11,040 nucleotides of DNA. Source: an uncultured Gammaproteobacteria bacterium (GTDB lineage Bacteria > Pseudomonadota > Gammaproteobacteria > GCA-2729495). The translations under genes were made by a program, and so were the position numbers. Numbering within the stretch: the stretch's first letter is position 1; each line of letters opens with the position of its first letter. The notes below the pieces were generated by a model. It was given only the letters and a program-made list of their open reading frames with translations, ran no database searches and was not told where the DNA came from. The DNA is taken from positions 1 through 11,040 of the forward strand of contig CAMYJV010000100.1 of the NCBI GenBank assembly GCA_947258805.1, read 5' to 3'. Shown piece by piece: positions 749 through 11,040 of the stretch.

Positions 749-776
749 TTTTGTTCACTACCCCCGGAGAGGACAC

Positions 777-3011
777 ATGCGCAAGTTGACCTGGTTGATC
801 GGGCTGCTGGCCGTCGCTGCAGTGATTTACTGGTTTGCTTTTTACCAGCCACAACCGGTTTCCACTGCAGCCATAGAGGCGGTAGAAGAATCCTCCAGCG
901 CCTCCGCCGCGCAGCATACCCTGGGGCAGGTCGACGATGCACGCGTCGCCGATGCGGCGGCGGACGAAGCCAACTGGCTGGTGCATGGCCGTACCTTCGA
1001 TGAACAACGCTTCTCCCCGCTCACCCAGATCAATCGCGACACGGTCAGTGGCCTGGGGCTGGCTTGGTTCCGCGACATGGGCACGAACCGCACCCTGGAA
1101 GCGACGCCCATCGTGGTTGATAACGTGATGTTTTTCAGCGGCGCCTGGAGCCGGGTTTACGCCATGTCAGCCGATGACGGCGAAATGCTCTGGTCATTCG
1201 ACCCGCAGATCAGCGGCGAGTGGGGCCGCAGAACCTGCTGTGACGTGGTCAATCGGGGTGTTGCCGTATACCAGGGCAAAGTGTATGTCGGCGCACTGGA
1301 TGGCCGCCTGATTGCGCTGGACGCCAAGAGTGGAGAACAACTGTGGACGGCCGATACCGTTGTTGACCGCTCCCGGGATTATTCCATCACCGGTGCGCCG
1401 CGCGTGGCCAATGGCAAGGTATTTATTGGTAACGGCGGCGCCGAATACGGGGTGCGCGGCTATGCCAGCGCTTACGACGCCGGCACCGGAGAACTGCTGT
1501 GGCGTTTTTTCACCGTTCCCGGCGATCCCTCTAAGCCTTTTGAGCACCCTGAAATGGAACTGGCCGCAAAGACCTGGAGCGGTGCCCCCTGGTGGGAGCA
1601 TGGCGGTGGCGGCACGGTCTGGAATTCCATCGTTTACGATCCGGAGTTCAACCAGGTCTATCTCGGAACCGGCAACGGTGCCCCCTGGCCACACGCGATA
1701 CGCTCCCCGGGGGGCGGCGACAATCTGTTCCTGGCCTCAATCGTGGCGGTTGACGCCGACACAGGCCACATGAACTGGTACTACCAGCAGGTCCCCGCGG
1801 AAAACTGGGATTACACTGCCACTCAGGACATGGCGCTGGCGGAAATGGAAGTGGATGGCGTGATGCGCAAGGTCCTCTTGCAGGCACCCAAGAACGGTTT
1901 CTTTTATGTGCTCGATCGCGCCGACGGCAAGTTATTACGGGCCCACCCTTTTGCCACCCTCAACTGGGCCACGCATGTGGACCTGGAGACCGGCCGGCCG
2001 GTGCTGAATCCCGACATCGATTACCTGGAAAAAGCCAAGTGGGTAATACCCGGCCCACTGGGAGCGCATAACTGGCAGGCGATGTCGGTGGACGTCCAGG
2101 CAGGCCTGGTTTATCTACCCACCCACGACACCCCCTTCATTTATTCCATGCCGGAAGGCTGGCAGAGCACCGGCCTGTACCAGAGGCGCATGGGCCAGTG
2201 GAATCTGGGTGTTGAACTCGAACGGGTAGCTGCCCTAATCGTGGAGAATATCGACACCGCGCCCCGGACCAGGGGTTACCTGAAAGCCTTTGATCCACTG
2301 AGCGGCGAAGCTCGCTGGACCGTCGAATTACCCCACTACTGGAATGGTGGAGTGCTGGCTACGAAGGGTGGCCTGGTGTTCCAGGGTGATGCACAGGGCT
2401 ACCTGAGCGCATACAACAAGGAAACGGGCGAGGTGCTGTGGCAATTCAATAGCTACACGTCCATCCTCGCAGCGCCCATCACTTACGCGGTTGACGGGGT
2501 GCAGTACGTTTCCATCCTGACCGGCACCGGCGGCGGAGACCTGTTCGGCCCGGGCGCCATCGATGCCGGCGAAACCCTGGCGTCGGGAAAGTACGGCAAC
2601 GCCGGCCGCATGCTGGTGTTCAGGCTGGGAGGCAAAGAACAACTGCCGCCACCGGCTTTGCGCGACCGATCCATACCCGAACAGGTGTTAACAGCCGTGT
2701 CGGATGAAGACCTGGCCGGCGGGGAACGGCTTTATTTCCAGAACTGTGCGGCTTGTCATGGTTTTGCCGTTCGGGCCGCCGGCGCTGGCATACCCGACCT
2801 GAGGCAGATGTCGCCGGCGACGCATGAAACCTTCGCCGCTATCGTACTTGGCGGTTCCCGCATGTCCAACGGCATGGCTTCATTCGCCAATGTACTGACC
2901 GCCGAGCAGGCGGAGCAGGTTCACCACTACATCAGGGCTCGCGCTTTCGAGGATCGTGAACAGTTACTGGGTAACAAGGAAGCAGCGCGGTTGACCTGGC
3001 AGCAGGATTAA
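777..3011 (+). CDS. Membrane-anchored PQQ- and haem c-containing alcohol dehydrogenase (quinohaemoprotein)
   Basis: This predicted periplasmic enzyme oxidises alcohols (substrate unknown) with PQQ and passes electrons through its own cytochrome c domain. The 744 residues comprise a hydrophobic anchor or uncleaved signal (4-23), a Ser/Ala/Glu-rich linker (24-60), an eight-bladed propeller (about 65-620) and a C-terminal cytochrome c (about 640-725). Six propeller docking motifs of the type AxDxxxGxxxW are visible (for example 180-190, 324-334, 504-514). Key residues are the vicinal disulphide Cys154-Cys155, metal ligands Glu224 and Asn300, catalytic Asp345 in NWDYT, and Lys371. The haem site is CAACH (657-661), with Met700 in NGMASF the likely sixth ligand. 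Thr347, two after the catalytic Asp, argues for calcium rather than a lanthanide. Start: GGAGAGG (766-772) precedes ATG 777. The frame stays open upstream to 90 only because it overlaps another gene. No PQQ synthesis gene is nearby. Confidence 0.9.
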   Translation: MRKLTWLIGLLAVAAVIYWFAFYQPQPVSTAAIEAVEESSSASAAQHTLGQVDDARVADAAADEANWLVHGRTFDEQRFSPLTQINRDTVSGLGLAWFRDMGTNRTLEATPIVVDNVMFFSGAWSRVYAMSADDGEMLWSFDPQISGEWGRRTCCDVVNRGVAVYQGKVYVGALDGRLIALDAKSGEQLWTADTVVDRSRDYSITGAPRVANGKVFIGNGGAEYGVRGYASAYDAGTGELLWRFFTVPGDPSKPFEHPEMELAAKTWSGAPWWEHGGGGTVWNSIVYDPEFNQVYLGTGNGAPWPHAIRSPGGGDNLFLASIVAVDADTGHMNWYYQQVPAENWDYTATQDMALAEMEVDGVMRKVLLQAPKNGFFYVLDRADGKLLRAHPFATLNWATHVDLETGRPVLNPDIDYLEKAKWVIPGPLGAHNWQAMSVDVQAGLVYLPTHDTPFIYSMPEGWQSTGLYQRRMGQWNLGVELERVAALIVENIDTAPRTRGYLKAFDPLSGEARWTVELPHYWNGGVLATKGGLVFQGDAQGYLSAYNKETGEVLWQFNSYTSILAAPITYAVDGVQYVSILTGTGGGDLFGPGAIDAGETLASGKYGNAGRMLVFRLGGKEQLPPPALRDRSIPEQVLTAVSDEDLAGGERLYFQNCAACHGFAVRAAGAGIPDLRQMSPATHETFAAIVLGGSRMSNGMASFANVLTAEQAEQVHHYIRARAFEDREQLLGNKEAARLTWQQD

Positions 3012-4709: not shown

Positions 4710-5462
4710 TCACCCCTGCCGGTAATGGTCGGGCAGTTCCCCGAACATGCGGCCGTAGAACACCACGCCCAATTCGTGCTCGGCCGCGTAGTCGTTCTGC
4801 GTCTTGACGATGTTCAGCCACAGGTCCTCGTCCTCGAACGAGAAAATGCCGGATTCATCGCCCGGGGAGCGGCGCGTCGGGTTGGGTCCGCGCTGCCGGT
4901 ACGGCTCCTGCGCATAGACCTCGTCGCAGATATCGTTGCGGAAATACAGCTGCGTCGTCGCTTCCTCGCCGAAATCGGGAGGATAGACCTTCAGGTGCAG
5001 GTGCGTGACGCGCGGGAAATACCAGCCGGGAAACGCCGTGACGAACTGCACCCTGCCCTGCTCGTCGGAGGTCTGCATGCCCCGGTGGAACGTCTCCGCG
5101 CTCAGGTCCACCTTGTCCGGTTTCGATGAGCCGTCGGCGTTGAGCAGCGTGTTTTCGACCCCTGAGTACAGCCCCTCGCTGTTGGCGTGCCAGATGACGA
5201 CCTTCGCTCCGGGCAACGGACGGCAGGCCAGCGCGTCCACCACGCGGAAGTTCAGCGTCAGGGGAATGCCTTTCTGGTTTTCGATCAGGTTCGACCGGTC
5301 CAGGTAATGGTCGACGTGGAACGGCCCCGTGACATCCTGCGTGATCAGGCGGCAGGAGCCCGCGCCGATTGCGCTGCGGGACTCCTCCTCCGCCAGCAGG
5401 CCCCCGACGCCCAGCCCGCCGCCGAGCGCGACGAGGCCCTTGATGAGTTTTCTTCGTTGCAT
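4710..5462 (-). CDS. Exported intradiol ring-cleavage dioxygenase
   Basis: This non-haem Fe(III) enzyme is expected to cleave a catechol-type ring between the hydroxyls, like protocatechuate 3,4-dioxygenase. The 250 residues start with a Tat-like signal: QRRKLIKGL followed by a Gly/Leu-rich core (9-24). The catalytic domain spans about 38-245. All four iron ligands are visible: Tyr99 (WHANSEGLYSG), Tyr148 (PGWYFPR), His154 and His156 (THLHLKVYP). It is a single-chain form outside the classic catA or pcaGH setting; no beta-ketoadipate pathway gene is in the window, so the substrate is unknown. Tat export as a folded metalloprotein points to the periplasm. The start at 5462 has GGGAGAG upstream. 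A hairpin (5480-5496) sits just before the ribosome binding site. Confidence 0.87.
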   Translation of the reverse strand: MQRRKLIKGLVALGGGLGVGGLLAEEESRSAIGAGSCRLITQDVTGPFHVDHYLDRSNLIENQKGIPLTLNFRVVDALACRPLPGAKVVIWHANSEGLYSGVENTLLNADGSSKPDKVDLSAETFHRGMQTSDEQGRVQFVTAFPGWYFPRVTHLHLKVYPPDFGEEATTQLYFRNDICDEVYAQEPYRQRGPNPTRRSPGDESGIFSFEDEDLWLNIVKTQNDYAAEHELGVVFYGRMFGELPDHYRQG

Positions 5463-5479
5463 GATGCTCTCCCTGTTTT

Positions 5480-5496
5480 CCGCCGTTATCCGGCGG
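5480..5496 (-). promoter_or_regulatory. Hairpin in the leader of the dioxygenase gene
   Basis: CCGCCG (5480-5485) pairs with CGGCGG (5491-5496) around a 5-base loop. In the leftward transcript it lies immediately upstream of the Shine-Dalgarno sequence of the intradiol dioxygenase. It might affect translation or mRNA stability; nothing in the sequence shows a ligand or protein that controls it. Confidence 0.35.
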
Positions 5497-5520
5497 TTTG
5501 TGTGATTTTGGGTGATTTGA

Positions 5521-5526
5521 AGTATA
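5521..5526 (-). promoter_or_regulatory. Possible -10 element for the dioxygenase gene
   Basis: Read leftward this is TATACT, about 60 bases before the ATG at 5462. No good -35 hexamer is at the expected distance. Just downstream the spaced repeat ATCACCCAAAATCAC could be a half-site pair. Confidence 0.25.
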
Positions 5527-5561
5527 AGCGATGATTGCCCGTTTGCCTCTCCGGGGCTTGA

Positions 5562-5581
5562 ACCCCTGATTCAGCAGGGGT
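5562..5581 (-). terminator. Hairpin between the Nudix and dioxygenase genes
   Basis: ACCCCTG and CAGGGGT form a 7-bp stem with a 6-base loop, 33 bases beyond the Nudix stop codon. In the leftward transcript it is not followed by a U-run, so it is a weak terminator candidate; it could also be a 3'-end stabilising hairpin. Confidence 0.3.
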
Positions 5582-5613
5582 ATTTTCACCCGCGCGCCCG
5601 CCAAGCACCTCAA

Positions 5614-6126
5614 CTAACACCGGAACTTCTGCCAAATTTTTCTTATTGCCGGCGTCAATTCGGACCGGGAAACCGCAACCCAATGATCCATCTCTTCAGG
5701 GCTCAGCCACGTTCCTTCATCCACTTCCGCCGGTTGCAGGGTGACCGGGGCGTCTGAAACGCAAAGAAACACGGTGCAGTATTCATATCCCGTGTCCTTC
5801 GAAGCCGGAAATTTGAATAACTGTGTCAGTTTTCCTTGATGCTGGATGCCGAGTTCTTCATTCAGTTCCCTCAAAGCGCACTGGTGATAACTTTCACCCG
5901 GATTCAGGTGGCCTGCGGCCGAACTGTCCCAGAGTCCTGGAAACTCATCCTTGTTCATTGAGCGCTTTTGCAGAAAAAACTCCCCCACCGTGTTGAAGAG
6001 CAGTACTTGGGCTGAACGGTGCATCAGGCCGCGTTTGTGGATAGTGCTACGGCTCTCCTTGCCAATCACCCGGTCGTTGTGGTCAACGACCTCCAGGATT
6101 TCTTTGCTGTATTTGGAACCTGGCAT
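5614..6126 (-). CDS. Nudix hydrolase, YfcD / IPP-isomerase-like group
   Basis: The 170 residues match the short Nudix proteins related to YfcD of E. coli and to isopentenyl-diphosphate isomerase: an N-terminal EILEVVDHNDRVIGKESR (10-27), then HRSAQVLLFN (36-45). The Nudix box GHLNPGESYHQCALREL (72-88) continues into NEELGI (89-94), with every catalytic Glu and Arg in place. The protein should hydrolyse a nucleoside diphosphate linked to another group, using Mg2+; the substrate cannot be read from the sequence, and isomerase activity is less likely. It is transcribed away from the korA operon and shares the 255-base divergent spacer with it. Sampled lines of the gene have roughly 53% GC, clearly below the kor operon, so it may have a separate history. 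Confidence 0.85.
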   Translation of the reverse strand: MPGSKYSKEILEVVDHNDRVIGKESRSTIHKRGLMHRSAQVLLFNTVGEFFLQKRSMNKDEFPGLWDSSAAGHLNPGESYHQCALRELNEELGIQHQGKLTQLFKFPASKDTGYEYCTVFLCVSDAPVTLQPAEVDEGTWLSPEEMDHWVAVSRSELTPAIRKIWQKFRC

Positions 6127-6381: not shown

Positions 6382-8268
6382 GTGGGTACAGCGGATATCA
6401 GGTCTATCGACATCATGGAAGTACCAGAGCATACGGTAGAAATCATCACCAACTCGGGGGAGGGCGCGCAGAAATGCGCGCAGATTTTTGGTCAGACCTG
6501 CGCCAAGATGGGGAATGGCGTCTGGACGGTGGAAATTATTCCGGCTGAAATCGAGCCGCCGCACCACACGGTGACCAGCACTTCGGGCAACATCATCCGG
6601 TTCGGGACCGACAAGATCACCAACTGGGGCGACCAGTCCAAGCTGGCCTTTGCCTTCAACGATCAGGTGCTGCTATCCCGCCATCGCCTCGATTCCCTCA
6701 AGGACGACTGCATCATCCTGCTGGAGTCCTGCTGGCAGGACCACGAGGACGAAGAGATTCGCCGAATGTACAAGGAGGCGATGGAGGAAATGTCCTCGAA
6801 GAATTACCGCTTCGTCCTGGTTCCGATCGAGGAGGAGACGCTCAAGATCGTCGACAATCCCAGCCACGGCAAGAACATGTTCGCGCTGGGCGTGCTGGCG
6901 GAGATTTACCAGCGTGACGTCTCGATCATCGAGAGGCAGATCGCGCACATTTTCCGCCTCAAGCCGCCCAAGGTCACGGAGAAGAACATCGAGTTGGTGA
7001 AGTCCGGCATTGCCTGGGCAAAGGAGAACCTCGACTTCCAGTTCCACATCAGGTCAGTGCCGTTCGATGAAGAACGAATCGTTATAAACGGCAACCAGGC
7101 CGCCGCCCTCGGCGCCATCGCCGCCGGCATGGAGTTGTGCGCGATGTACCCGATCACGCCGGCGACCTCGGTGTCGCACGATCTCTCCGAAATCATCGAG
7201 AGTTACGGCGGCATCGTGCACCAGGCGGAGGATGAGATCGCCGCCGCCGGTGTGGCCATAGGCGCTTCCTATGGCGGCAAAGTCGCGCTGACCGTGACCT
7301 CGGGCCCCGGCATGGCGCTGAAGACCGAGTTCCTGGCGCTGGCCATCATGGTGGAAGTGCCGCTGGTGGTGCTGGATGTCCAGCGCGGCGGGCCGTCGAC
7401 CGGCCTGCCGACCAAGGTGGAGCAGTCCGACCTGCTGTCTTCGCTGTACGGCCAGCCCGGCGACGCCCCGCGCGTCGTCATCGCGCCACGCACGATCGAG
7501 GAGTGCTTCCACTCCATGGTCACCGCGCGGCGCATCGCGGAGACCTTCCGCACCGTGGTTATCGTCCTGACCGACGCCAACCTGGCTACCGGCGTGCAGC
7601 AGTTCACGCGCCCGGCCCTGGACGTGCGCTGGCAGCAGGACCCGATTGACCAGTCGCCGGTCCCCGAGGGGCTTCGCCCCTACGATTGGGATCCCGACAC
7701 CGGTCTCTCACGGCGCATCATTCCCGGCTCGCCCGGCGGACAGCATACCGTGACCGGCCTGGCCCACGACGAAGAAAGCCTGGTGTCCTACCATCCCTCG
7801 AGCAACGAGCGGGGCATGGTGATGCGCAGCCGCAAGCTGGCCGTGTTCCAGTCCACGCTGATGCCGCCGGATCTCCACGGCGAAGAGGAAGGTGATCTGC
7901 TGGTCATCGGCTGGGGCTCGACCCAGGGCGCCATCGTCGAGGCGGTCGACCGGGCTCGCGCCGATGGCCACAAGGTCTCCACCTGCCAGCTGACCTTCCT
8001 GTCGCCGCTGGAACCGGGCCTGAAGGAGATCTGCAGCAAGTTCAGGAAAGTCATGACGGTGGAGATCAACTATTCCGACACCCCTGGCGACCCGTACATC
8101 AACGACGAAACACGCCGCTACGGCCAGCTGGCCTGGCTGCTGCGCGCCCACACGCTGGTGGACATCGACTGCTGGACCAGCTGTCCAGGTCAGCCCCTGC
8201 GTCCAAAGGACATTTACCGCAACATCATCGCCAAGATAGAACCGATTGAAGAAGGAGTGGCCGCATGA
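6382..8268 (+). CDS. korA: 2-oxoglutarate:ferredoxin oxidoreductase, fused gamma-alpha subunit
   Basis: With the next gene it should catalyse 2-oxoacid + CoA to acyl-CoA + CO2, reducing a low-potential electron carrier. The 628 residues carry the gamma (POR) domain first (about 15-195, NSGEGAQKCAQIFGQ near its start). A linker leads to the alpha domain (about 233-440), with YPITPAT (256-262), TSGPGMALKTEF (306-317) and RGGPSTGLPTK (335-345), and a C-terminal transketolase-like domain (about 485-615). This gamma-alpha fusion and length are typical of KorA-type enzymes. The start is GTG 6382, with GGAG at 6369-6372. It overlaps korB by 4 bases (ATGA). 2-oxoglutarate is the usual substrate of this fused type, but sequence alone does not exclude other 2-oxoacids. 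Confidence 0.87.
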   Translation: MGTADIRSIDIMEVPEHTVEIITNSGEGAQKCAQIFGQTCAKMGNGVWTVEIIPAEIEPPHHTVTSTSGNIIRFGTDKITNWGDQSKLAFAFNDQVLLSRHRLDSLKDDCIILLESCWQDHEDEEIRRMYKEAMEEMSSKNYRFVLVPIEEETLKIVDNPSHGKNMFALGVLAEIYQRDVSIIERQIAHIFRLKPPKVTEKNIELVKSGIAWAKENLDFQFHIRSVPFDEERIVINGNQAAALGAIAAGMELCAMYPITPATSVSHDLSEIIESYGGIVHQAEDEIAAAGVAIGASYGGKVALTVTSGPGMALKTEFLALAIMVEVPLVVLDVQRGGPSTGLPTKVEQSDLLSSLYGQPGDAPRVVIAPRTIEECFHSMVTARRIAETFRTVVIVLTDANLATGVQQFTRPALDVRWQQDPIDQSPVPEGLRPYDWDPDTGLSRRIIPGSPGGQHTVTGLAHDEESLVSYHPSSNERGMVMRSRKLAVFQSTLMPPDLHGEEEGDLLVIGWGSTQGAIVEAVDRARADGHKVSTCQLTFLSPLEPGLKEICSKFRKVMTVEINYSDTPGDPYINDETRRYGQLAWLLRAHTLVDIDCWTSCPGQPLRPKDIYRNIIAKIEPIEEGVAA

Positions 8269-9218
8269 GCAGTATCGCAATCTCGCTGCTGGATCTCGAA
8301 CCCGACGCCCCCGCGTGCCTGGAGGCGGAAGACTACCAGCGTCGACCCGGTAAATGGTGCGCAGGCTGCGGCGATTTCGGCGCCCTGAACGCGGTCAAGC
8401 GCCTGATGGCAAAGGAACAGCTGCAACCCGAGAAAACGGTGTTCGTGTCCGGCATCGGCTGCTCCAGCCGCTTTCCGCATTACGTCAACGCATACGGCTT
8501 CCACGGCATCCACGGGCGCGCCCTGCCGGTCGCCACCGGCGTCAAGCTGGCGCGGCCGGAACTGGACGTGTTCGTGACCATGGGTGACGGTGACTGCACC
8601 TCGATCGGCGCCGGTCACTGGATCCACGCGACGCGTTACAACGCCAACATGGTCGTGCTGATGCTGGACAACAACATCTACGGCCTGACCAAGAACCAGA
8701 CCTCGCCGACCACGCCTTTGGGCTATGCCTCGATGACCTCGCCGCGCGGCGCGGTGCTGCCGGCGCTGGACCCGCTGCAGGCCACGCTCGGCGTGTCCAA
8801 CGCCTCCTTCGTGGCCCAGACCGCCGACTGGGTGCCGGTGCACCTGTATGCCACTCTGGAGGCCGCCTACGAGCACCCCGGTTTTTCCTTCGTGCGCATC
8901 CTGCAGCGCTGCCCCAAGTTCACGCCGGACGTGTTCCAGAAGAACGTCGAGAATCCCGACCTGACCGAATTGCTGGTGCATGAGGACGGTGTCGACGTCC
9001 CCGCGCTGGAGCAGCTGTTCAAGTCGCGGCGCAGGCATGACCCACTGAATCTCGACGACGCCCGGTCCCTGGCGCGCCGCAGCGACATGCTCCGCCTGGG
9101 CGTGTTCTTCCGCGACGACAGCCTGCCGGTTTACGAGGAAATCCGCGCTGTGCCGAAGGTATCGGCGGAAGAGAAAGTGGCCCGCCTCAACAAGGAATTC
9201 GAACGTCATGCCGTCTGA
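8265..9218 (+). CDS. korB: 2-oxoglutarate:ferredoxin oxidoreductase, beta (TPP) subunit
   Basis: This subunit binds thiamine diphosphate and one [4Fe-4S] cluster and completes the active site with KorA. The TPP motif is GDGDCTSIGAGHWIHATRYN (107-126), followed by LDNNIYGLTKNQ (134-145). Cluster ligands are Cys32 and Cys35 in WCAGCGDF, Cys66 in IGCSSRF and Cys216 in QRCPKF. At 317 residues it is of usual length. Gene order alpha-beta with ATGA overlap and AAGGAG shortly upstream show a translationally coupled pair. Its last 11 bases overlap the next gene, which suggests that the unknown protein is made together with the enzyme. Confidence 0.9.
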   Translation: MSSIAISLLDLEPDAPACLEAEDYQRRPGKWCAGCGDFGALNAVKRLMAKEQLQPEKTVFVSGIGCSSRFPHYVNAYGFHGIHGRALPVATGVKLARPELDVFVTMGDGDCTSIGAGHWIHATRYNANMVVLMLDNNIYGLTKNQTSPTTPLGYASMTSPRGAVLPALDPLQATLGVSNASFVAQTADWVPVHLYATLEAAYEHPGFSFVRILQRCPKFTPDVFQKNVENPDLTELLVHEDGVDVPALEQLFKSRRRHDPLNLDDARSLARRSDMLRLGVFFRDDSLPVYEEIRAVPKVSAEEKVARLNKEFERHAV

Positions 9219-10074
9219 AGATCGAACCGGGATCGCCCTGGAGGCGATCCGCCCGCGCGCAGAGCTGTTCCATTCGGCCTTGGCGACGACCATGGAGCAG
9301 ATCCGTGGCCTGTTGGCCGGGACCGGTGAGTCTCCGGAGGATCAGACGATCGCCCTGGGCAACTTCGCCTCGGGCCACGTAGACGTTCAGCGCTTCTCCG
9401 CATTCACCCGCCAGGCCACGAAAGTCGAGCCCACGGCGGAACTGCCGATCCGTGCCGCGCAGAGGGCGCTCGATGACCTCCTGCACATGGGCGACAACCT
9501 GTTCGTATTGAAACTGGCTGAAGGCGCCAACCTGGGCGCCGAGGTAGCTGAACGGCTGAAGACGATCGGTAACGCATTTTCCGCCGCCCATGTCGCCGAC
9601 CTGGCCAAGCGCAACCAGTTCCGCGAAGAGAAGCATGCGCACCTGCTGGACGGCCTGGCCTACGCGAACTGGAGCCAGGCCGAGCGGGCGCTGGCGCCGG
9701 GATTGGTGATCGAACTGGGCGGCGCCGAGTTCACACCGGCCCAGGCCGCGCCCTATCTCGATGCCGGGCTGGAGGCTTTCTCGGCATGGGAAGGCACAGC
9801 GGTTGCCGCGCTGCTGCCCGAGGGTGCGGTCACTTTCGTTCACGATCCCGCGGCCGGTGAGACCACCTACGAGCGCTTCACCACGCTGGATCTGCCCAAG
9901 GAAATCCGCAAGCGCGCCATCGGCGGTATCAGTGCACGGCAGCAGGCTGAAGACCTGGAACTGCTGGAGGCCCTGGCCGTGGTTCCCACGCCGACCGGCG
10001 AGGCGGCTTCCGATCCGGCGGGCAAGCTTTCCGCCTGGTTGCTGAGCCAGACCAGCCTGGCCGGCGACGGATAG
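9208..10074 (+). CDS. Unknown cysteine-free protein inside the oxidoreductase operon
   Basis: I do not recognise this 288-residue protein. It is soluble-looking: no signal peptide, no membrane segment, and no cysteine at all, so it holds no iron-sulphur cluster although every other complete gene in the operon encodes one or more. It is rich in Ala, Leu and Glu. The first two thirds look mainly helical (for example 14-38, 84-97, 109-150), followed by a segment with short strands (165-215) and a low-complexity C-terminus. It starts inside korB (11-base overlap, ATG 9208, AAGGA upstream) and ends 22 bases before the RnfB-like gene. The position suggests a structural or assembly subunit that links KorAB to the membrane ferredoxin, or a maturation factor; this is inference from context only. 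Confidence 0.8.
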   Translation: MPSEDRTGIALEAIRPRAELFHSALATTMEQIRGLLAGTGESPEDQTIALGNFASGHVDVQRFSAFTRQATKVEPTAELPIRAAQRALDDLLHMGDNLFVLKLAEGANLGAEVAERLKTIGNAFSAAHVADLAKRNQFREEKHAHLLDGLAYANWSQAERALAPGLVIELGGAEFTPAQAAPYLDAGLEAFSAWEGTAVAALLPEGAVTFVHDPAAGETTYERFTTLDLPKEIRKRAIGGISARQQAEDLELLEALAVVPTPTGEAASDPAGKLSAWLLSQTSLAGDG

Positions 10075-10096
10075 CCAAACCCGTGGGCAACAGGCC

Positions 10097-10963
10097 ATGA
10101 GCGGCAATCCCATTCTCGATTCGGCCCTGATACTGGGCGGCGTGGGCCTGTTTTTCGGTTTCGTCATCGCCCTGGTCAACAAGCGCTTCAGGGTGTGGGA
10201 AGACCCGCGTATCGTCGGTGTCGAGGAACTGTTGCCCAGCACGAATTGCGGCGCCTGCTCACAGCCCGGCTGCCGGGCCTTCGCCGAGTCGGTGGTGACC
10301 GGTGTTCAACAGCCGTCCGACTGCACGGTGATGAGCCCCGATGCTATCGAAGACCTGGCAGGTTACCTCGGCGTCGATGCCGGTGAGGCCAACAAGCGCG
10401 TGGCCCGCCTGCTGTGCGCAGGAGGCAAGGACGAGGCGCACCGGAACGCCGATTACAGCGGTTTCGATTCCTGCAAGGCCGCCGCGGCCGTCGCCGGCGG
10501 CGGCAAGGGCTGCACCTGGGGCTGCCTGGGCCTGCGCGATTGCGAAGTGGTCTGCCTGCTTGACGCCATCTACATGAACGATGACGAGTTGCCGGTGGTG
10601 ATCCCCGAAAAATGCACTGCCTGCAATGACTGCGTGGAGACCTGCCCGAAAGACCTGTTCGTGCTGATGCCGATCGAGCAGAAGCTCATCGTGCAGTGCC
10701 GGAACCTGGTCTATGGCGATGCGGCCGAGGAGATGTGCAGTGTGGCCTGCAACGCCTGCTCACGCTGCGTCGCCGACGCCGAGCCGGGATTGATTGAGAT
10801 GATCGACAACCTGGCTGTCATCGATTACGAGAAAAACGCCCTGGCCGATCCCAAGGCCATCGCACGGTGCCCCACGGACGCGATCGTGTGGGTCGAGGGG
10901 CAACAGTTTGCCCAGCAAACTATCAATAGTAGCTCCAAGAAGCCGGAGATAAGAGCCGTATGA
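10097..10963 (+). CDS. RnfB-like membrane-anchored polyferredoxin
   Basis: The 288 residues have one N-terminal membrane helix (about 6-27). Next is the RnfB-type [4Fe-4S] domain with Cys51, 54, 59 and 76 (CxxCx4C then 16 residues). A long-RnfB ferredoxin module follows: GCTWGCLGLRDC with Cys139, 143, 149 and 153, then CTACNDCVETC with Cys173, 176, 179 and 183. The last module keeps Cys218, 221, 224 and the distal Cys258 (RCPTDAI), enough for one cluster. It lacks the Cys expected near 228 and the three expected near 247-253. About four clusters are predicted; Cys107, 126, 201 and 214 are additional. In Rnf complexes RnfB takes electrons from ferredoxin; here it probably takes them from the oxidoreductases encoded beside it. 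No rnfC, D, G, E or A is in the window. It overlaps the next gene by 4 bases. Confidence 0.85.
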   Translation: MSGNPILDSALILGGVGLFFGFVIALVNKRFRVWEDPRIVGVEELLPSTNCGACSQPGCRAFAESVVTGVQQPSDCTVMSPDAIEDLAGYLGVDAGEANKRVARLLCAGGKDEAHRNADYSGFDSCKAAAAVAGGGKGCTWGCLGLRDCEVVCLLDAIYMNDDELPVVIPEKCTACNDCVETCPKDLFVLMPIEQKLIVQCRNLVYGDAAEEMCSVACNACSRCVADAEPGLIEMIDNLAVIDYEKNALADPKAIARCPTDAIVWVEGQQFAQQTINSSSKKPEIRAV

Positions 10964-11040
10964 AGCCGCAGGACCGCCAGGCCCGCTATCCCGGGATCGT
11001 CAGGACCGGGGATGGAAACGCCGCCGTCGTCGCGATGGAC
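10960..11040 (+). CDS. Start of a second 2-oxoacid:ferredoxin oxidoreductase subunit (partial)
   Basis: Only 27 residues are inside the window. The stretch RYPGIVRTGDGNAAVVAMD resembles the beginning of alpha-type subunits of pyruvate or 2-oxoacid:ferredoxin oxidoreductases, where YPG and DGNxAVV precede the YPITP motif. The ATG (10960) overlaps the stop of the RnfB-like gene (ATGA), and GGAG lies at 10945-10948. If correct, the operon encodes two distinct oxidoreductases around one RnfB-like protein. The call rests on a short stretch and needs the sequence to the right of the window. Confidence 0.55.
   Translation, partial: MKPQDRQARYPGIVRTGDGNAAVVAMD

Follow-up and report, generated by a model that had tools for sequence, protein, structure and literature searches.

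A conserved ten-gene operon combining two 2-oxoacid oxidoreductases, an apparent pseudo-subunit and the Rnf complex

Organization and Conservation of the Operon

Analysis of an 11,040-nucleotide stretch of DNA from an uncultured Gammaproteobacteria bacterium (contig CAMYJV010000100.1 of assembly GCA_947258805.1; hereafter the window, which appears to be the entire contig) revealed the leading part, four genes and the beginning of the fifth, of an operon that in relatives comprises ten genes, korA-korB-X-rnfB-POR-rnfC-rnfD-rnfG-rnfE-rnfA, and that would continue here in the same way. The operon encodes two 2-oxoacid oxidoreductases (OFORs), namely KorAB and a large enzyme similar to pyruvate:ferredoxin oxidoreductase (PFOR), here called POR, together with a hypothetical protein, X, and the subunits of Rnf. 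We consider it probable that KorAB and POR oxidize 2-oxoacids, that the electrons pass via RnfB to nicotinamide adenine dinucleotide (NAD+) with export of ions, and that X serves as an adaptor.

Related loci were collected by an RnfB-alignment scan of a genome collection, the best 80 of 133 matching stretches being taken. All of them were titled metagenome-assembled genomes (MAGs), and the host labels were Gammaproteobacteria, Gemmatimonadota, Rokubacteria, Planctomycetota, and a few others; as RnfB was the bait, the set is uninformative on the frequency of KorAB without Rnf. All ten genes occurred in one order and on one strand in 31 of the 80 loci, that is, in 31 of 31 complete ones, which argues for conservation of the arrangement rather than chance. 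These 31 represent fewer independent events, because L006 and L007 are two ends of one contig, and L079 and L080 are near copies. The contig of L006 and L007 looks like an assembly palindrome, with identical cluster coordinates at both ends. Locus L001 comes from a Lysobacterales MAG, and its RnfB shares 92% identity with that of the window; here the ten genes overlap or stand at most 8 bases apart and leave no room for a separate ferredoxin gene.

Of the 80 loci, 45 extend 9.2 kb or more past rnfB, and 41 of these, the window's near relatives L001 and L002 among them, carry rnfC, rnfD, rnfG, and two genes of the E/A type; in the other 35 loci the downstream sequence was too short to judge. 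Three of the four exceptions (L019, L039, and L042) lose the homology where a run of N marks a scaffold gap, and the available sequence beyond it shows no return of the homology. The fourth, the acidobacterial L063, has an rnfB-rnfE-rnfA trio (9941-12184), while rnfC, rnfD, rnfG, and POR were not detected in its 20.9 kb. Five loci, assigned to Acidobacteria and some Gammaproteobacteria (L066, L069, L070, L073, and L074), carry rnfB-POR-rnfCDGEA with KorAB and X not found, a limited absence in the case of L070 with only 692 bases upstream; L077 has rnfB-POR followed by the contig end.

A separate bait, the X profile, detected X in 37 of 200 Gemmatimonadota genomes, 30 of which were newly met, and 14 of these were examined. 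The order korA-korB-X-rnfB-POR was present in all 14 loci and complete rnfCDGEA in 12, the exceptions being L088, in which a run of N interrupts POR, and L092, which ends with its contig. One of these loci (L093) lies on the contig of L071, another (L081) is close kin of L075, L079, and L080, and none of the remaining 12 has a sampled 60-mer in common with the first set. Since this bait yielded the same order, the association is not an artefact of the RnfB bait. Two Gemmatimonadota loci contain additional DNA, about 1.5 kb between rnfD and rnfG in L084 (14679-16166) and 1.2 kb between rnfG and rnfE in L085 (2928-4129).

The presence of X was tightly linked to that of KorAB: among the 80 loci, 66 had both, none had KorAB without X, four had X without KorAB, and ten had neither. 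Of the four, L017 has a piece of KorB beside an N gap, and L023, L031, and L061 start within 1.1 kb of rnfB; similarly, three of the ten (L029, L052, and L070) have fewer than 700 bases upstream. That KorAB was never met without X suggests X as its stoichiometric partner. In the RnfB tree (78 rows; L007, L050, and L080 were excluded, and L050 was placed in a separate 25-row tree), the seven loci with neither KorAB nor X found (six with POR, and L063 without it) were split from the rest with 100/100 support. L050 is an exception, as its RnfB falls inside the KorAB clade, yet unrelated genes lie upstream. The gammaproteobacterial clade of the window (15 labelled rows plus the window, 100/98) sits among other phyla, a placement compatible with transfer between phyla, though not proof of it.

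KorAB, RnfB, and POR

All operon genes of the window are located on the plus strand. The first one, korA (6382-8268), starts with GTG in the open reading frame (ORF) list and encodes the alpha(+gamma) subunit of a 2-oxoacid:acceptor oxidoreductase, with Pfam domains PF01855 and PF01558; the protein passes the NCBIfam TIGR03710 cut-off (512.9 vs 482.75 bits), and its YPITP motif is kept in 55 of 55 relatives examined. The korB gene (8265-9218), overlapping korA by 4 bases, encodes the thiamine diphosphate (ThDP)-binding, 4Fe-4S beta subunit. As KorB scores below the cut-off of its best NCBIfam model (TIGR02177, 220.2 vs 261.9 bits), its identity rests on the domain (PF02775, 91.5 vs a cut-off of 21.9) and motif: GDG (ThDP) is found in 64 of 64 relatives, and the ThDP motif and cluster cysteines in 61-64 of 64. 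The closest solved structure by sequence is 6n2n_B. The substrate of KorAB is probably 2-oxoglutarate; assignment from active-site motifs was rejected, since the only motifs counted, those of the YPITP type, are not decisive.

Downstream of X, after a 22-base gap, lies the rnfB-like gene (10097-10963) for a membrane-anchored polyferredoxin, the electron-entry subunit of Rnf. It has PF04060 (47.1 vs 23), passes TIGR01944 for rnfB (78.3 vs 68.7 bits), and aligns to the solved RnfB chains 9eri_B (residues 4-263) and 7zc6_B (8-266). Its N-terminus is hydrophobic, the membrane helix being judged by eye. All 79 untruncated relatives, 10 of which were aligned, have a single CxxCxxCxxxC run in the C-terminal ferredoxin part, which supplies the ligands of one cluster; ahead of the closing RCPT.AI motif they lack cysteines that are present in the aligned 7zc6 chain. 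Because the number of RnfB clusters also varies among known Rnf complexes, according to the accessible text of PMC7414866, we treat the single cluster as a lead and not as an argument.

The fifth gene (ATG at 10960, 4-base overlap with rnfB) runs off the window, so that just its first 81 bases (10960-11040) are available. The 26 residues after Met match, in a comparison by eye, the N-terminus of the large oxidoreductase of L001, which identifies the frame as the start of an OFOR. In L001 this gene (10861-15927) encodes 1,688 residues and is directly followed by rnfC-D-G-E-A. The protein combines PF01855, PF17147, and PF01558 with ferredoxin motifs, and both PORs scanned (L001 and L069) carry a single-cluster ferredoxin domain (Fer4_13) in the C-terminal part; CxxCxxC occurs in 56 of 62 PORs within their final 120 residues. 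The ThDP region of the L001 protein is recognized by PorB-type models and a solved PFOR, not by Pfam, and the L069 copy additionally has PF02775. Since the L001 protein scores far below the TIGR02176 equivalog cut-off for canonical PFOR (301.5 vs 911.35 bits), we class it as PFOR-like only; pyruvate or a similar 2-oxoacid is its probable substrate.

Among the other L001 genes, rnfC, rnfD, and rnfE are above the NCBIfam cut-offs, and rnfG (91.7 vs 102) and rnfA (225 vs 229.3) are slightly below. The L001 RnfC keeps the flavin mononucleotide (FMN)/NADH-type domain PF01512, which indicates NAD(H) rather than quinone. The predicted function of the complex is ferredoxin:NAD+ oxidoreductase activity coupled to ion transport, and the RnfB of the window is predicted to be its electron-entry subunit, not a lone outlet to quinone.

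The initial annotation of the window had described the layout korA-korB-unknown-RnfB-like-second OFOR start with the same overlaps and gap, as confirmed by the ORFs, and its proposal of two OFORs encoded around a membrane-anchored RnfB is borne out by the conserved gene neighbourhoods; its assignment of the last partial gene to an OFOR agrees with the L001 comparison. It also saw no other rnf gene, which holds for the window merely since the sequence ends there; in relatives rnfCDGEA follow.

Protein X

The X gene (9208-10074) overlaps korB by 11 bases and precedes rnfB. Its product is carried as a nameless hypothetical protein in the databases searched and gave no hit in Pfam or NCBIfam at E 0.001. 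Profile-profile comparison matched X to the ThDP domain of POR, with shuffled or reversed controls reaching about half the score, and fold comparison, in which a fold missing from the match lists was not counted as excluded, likewise pointed to that domain and that enzyme family. As the two methods converge, chance resemblance of an unrelated new protein to the ThDP domain has only a small probability. The cofactor motif GDG...N was found in 1 of 67 X proteins, compared with 64 of 64 KorB and 55 of 62 POR proteins. The reading that fits X best is therefore that of a diverged POR ThDP-domain paralogue lacking the cofactor motif, which is well supported, though not proven; X would be a pseudo-subunit, apparently a catalytically dead relative of one of the two oxidoreductases.

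Other origins of X were rejected. Its profile shows no similarity to that of KorB (probability 1.4), which speaks against a KorB duplicate; the search for a sequence relative among solved structures gave a single match (E 1); and a metal-cluster protein is at odds with 0-5 Cys per sequence and zero Cys in 17 of 67. Compared with its relatives, the X of the window is missing 34 residues through an in-frame gap of 102 bases (9763-9764, at a short CCGG repeat), and these map to predicted strands of the alpha/beta part; the gap is either an assembly error or a real deletion.

Metabolic Context of the Hosts

The subunit I gene of heme-copper oxidase was found in 39 of the 40 host genomes, and rnfC was over the cut-off in 38. 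Counting by hand gave two or more RnfC places over the cut-off in 12 of 14 gammaproteobacterial genomes (G001-G003, G005-G012, and G014), so that a second Rnf system may coexist there with the one described. The E1 component of 2-oxoglutarate dehydrogenase (TIGR00239) was over the cut-off in 29 of 40 hosts, and three strong partial matches bring the hand count to 32. Replacement of a missing 2-oxoglutarate dehydrogenase is thus not the general role of KorAB; it is possible in the eight hosts without a strong match (G013, G018, G022, G023, G032, G034, G035, and G037; hand count), many of which may be incomplete assemblies. The citrate-binding domain of ATP-citrate lyase was over the cut-off in none of the 40 hosts, with two weaker matches, which speaks against a classic ATP-citrate-lyase reductive tricarboxylic acid (rTCA) cycle, weakly so since the control genomes gave 0 of 14 too.

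The remaining part of the window lies upstream of the operon. A cluster of short palindromic repeats with exact 20-, 13-, and 12-base inverted arms (601-714), which could be mobile or regulatory, separates the first gene from a gene for a pyrroloquinoline quinone (PQQ)-dependent alcohol-type dehydrogenase with a C-terminal cytochrome c domain (768-3011; TIGR03075 above the cut-off). The minus strand at 4710-6126 encodes an intradiol-dioxygenase-like protein (PF00775) and a NUDIX hydrolase similar to isopentenyl diphosphate (IPP) isomerase (PF00293).

Proposed Function and Alternatives

In the proposed scheme, coenzyme A (CoA)-dependent oxidation of 2-oxoacids would be catalyzed by KorAB (2-oxoglutarate) and POR (a pyruvate-like substrate), the low-potential electrons of both would pass to RnfB of the complete Rnf complex, and Rnf would reduce NAD+ and export Na+ or H+. 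X would most likely be a structural adaptor tying KorAB to RnfB and/or POR. The ThDP domain of PFOR packs near a dicluster ferredoxin domain, and for this reason we propose that X, as a descendant of that domain, may clamp KorAB onto the ferredoxin domains of RnfB. We infer the substrates, the direction of electron flow, the physical docking, and the role of X.

More tentatively, KorAB and POR might be permanent subunits of an Rnf supercomplex that pass electrons directly to RnfB without free ferredoxin, with X docking KorAB; we would put this somewhat below an even chance. If true, the dehydrogenase step itself would let respiring bacteria store energy from 2-oxoacid oxidation in an ion gradient.

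It is rather unlikely that the coupling is loose, with both OFORs reducing a soluble ferredoxin encoded elsewhere that then donates to Rnf, and with X as a stability or assembly factor. The OFORs and Rnf of known organisms do work in this way, and tight gene spacing means co-expression, not contact. However, the ten genes of L001 have no space for a ferredoxin gene, POR carries its own C-terminal ferredoxin domain, and the constant company of X and KorAB suggests a stoichiometric partner.

The opposite direction of flow, in which Rnf would use NADH and the ion gradient to reduce RnfB or ferredoxin, and KorAB and POR would act as reductive carboxylases in CO2 fixation or anaplerosis, appears improbable. 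Rnf runs both ways, as the available portion of PMC7414866 states, and is clustered with rTCA genes in the Riftia symbiont, according to what was accessible of PMC11636981; moreover, the 2-oxoglutarate dehydrogenase E1 of 32 of 40 hosts could already serve oxidation. Against this stand the lack of over-threshold ATP-citrate lyase domains in the hosts (the controls had none either) and the nearly universal heme-copper oxidases, which fit respiring heterotrophs. A citrate-synthase-based reverse cycle is a possible variant of this alternative.

Finally, the initial annotation placed RnfB outside Rnf, as an exit in the membrane through which electrons reach quinone or some other partner. The absence of further rnf genes from the window and the isolated trio of L063 could be cited for this view, but it is hardly credible given the rnfC, rnfD, rnfG, and E/A-type genes of the 41 loci. 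The annotation itself had named a complete rnf operon directly downstream as evidence that would overturn its view, and by homology relatives provide just that, although the window stops short of the region concerned.

Rnf and OFORs are usually joined by diffusing ferredoxin only. That substrate oxidation and ion pumping can form one machine is suggested by a conserved operon holding an OFOR inside rnf, a second OFOR, and an apparent pseudoenzyme, and this in hosts that also encode heme-copper oxidases. The operon gives a testable role to the hypothetical protein family X, and raises the question of why a low-potential second route is kept when 2-oxoglutarate dehydrogenase is often present.

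Comparison with Known Systems

Rnf, KorAB, and PFOR are known kinds of enzymes, and their joint operon with X has apparently not been described so far: in the literature found, parts of which were available as partial text, there was no OFOR inside an rnf operon and no X-like protein, subscription papers and preprints being outside the search. A comparable case is the Riftia symbiont, a chemosynthetic symbiont with OFOR and Rnf genes near each other, where korABCD occurs with Hdr-Flx, transhydrogenase, and ATP-citrate lyase; the accessible text mentions neither an X-like subunit nor an OFOR within the rnf operon (PMC11636981). The accessible parts of further reports note rokubacterial and Woeseiales Rnf without the KorAB-X-POR context (PMC6064768, PMC7451513) and OFORs adjoining 2-oxoglutarate dehydrogenase in Halieaceae isolates (PMC10100682).

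Compared with the 2-oxoacid:acceptor oxidoreductases of known structure (6n2n, 5b46), KorAB is similar in that KorA passes TIGR03710 and that the ThDP motif and cluster cysteines are present in KorB relatives, and differs in being encoded alongside X and Rnf and in the KorB score below the TIGR02177 cut-off. POR shares with PFOR (6cin, 1b0p) the three Pfam domains and ferredoxin motifs listed above and matches PFOR/PorB in the ThDP region, but is about 460-520 residues longer and has an extra C-terminal ferredoxin.

The solved Rnf complexes, 9eri and 7zc6, are those of Acetobacterium woodii and Clostridium tetanomorphum, respectively. The RnfB of the window aligns to both RnfB chains over most of its length, and rnfC, rnfD, and rnfE of L001 pass their cut-offs; however, RnfB here keeps the ligands of one cluster in its C-terminal ferredoxin part, compared with more in the aligned chains, and in relatives a large OFOR gene stands between rnfB and rnfC, with KorAB-X before rnfB.

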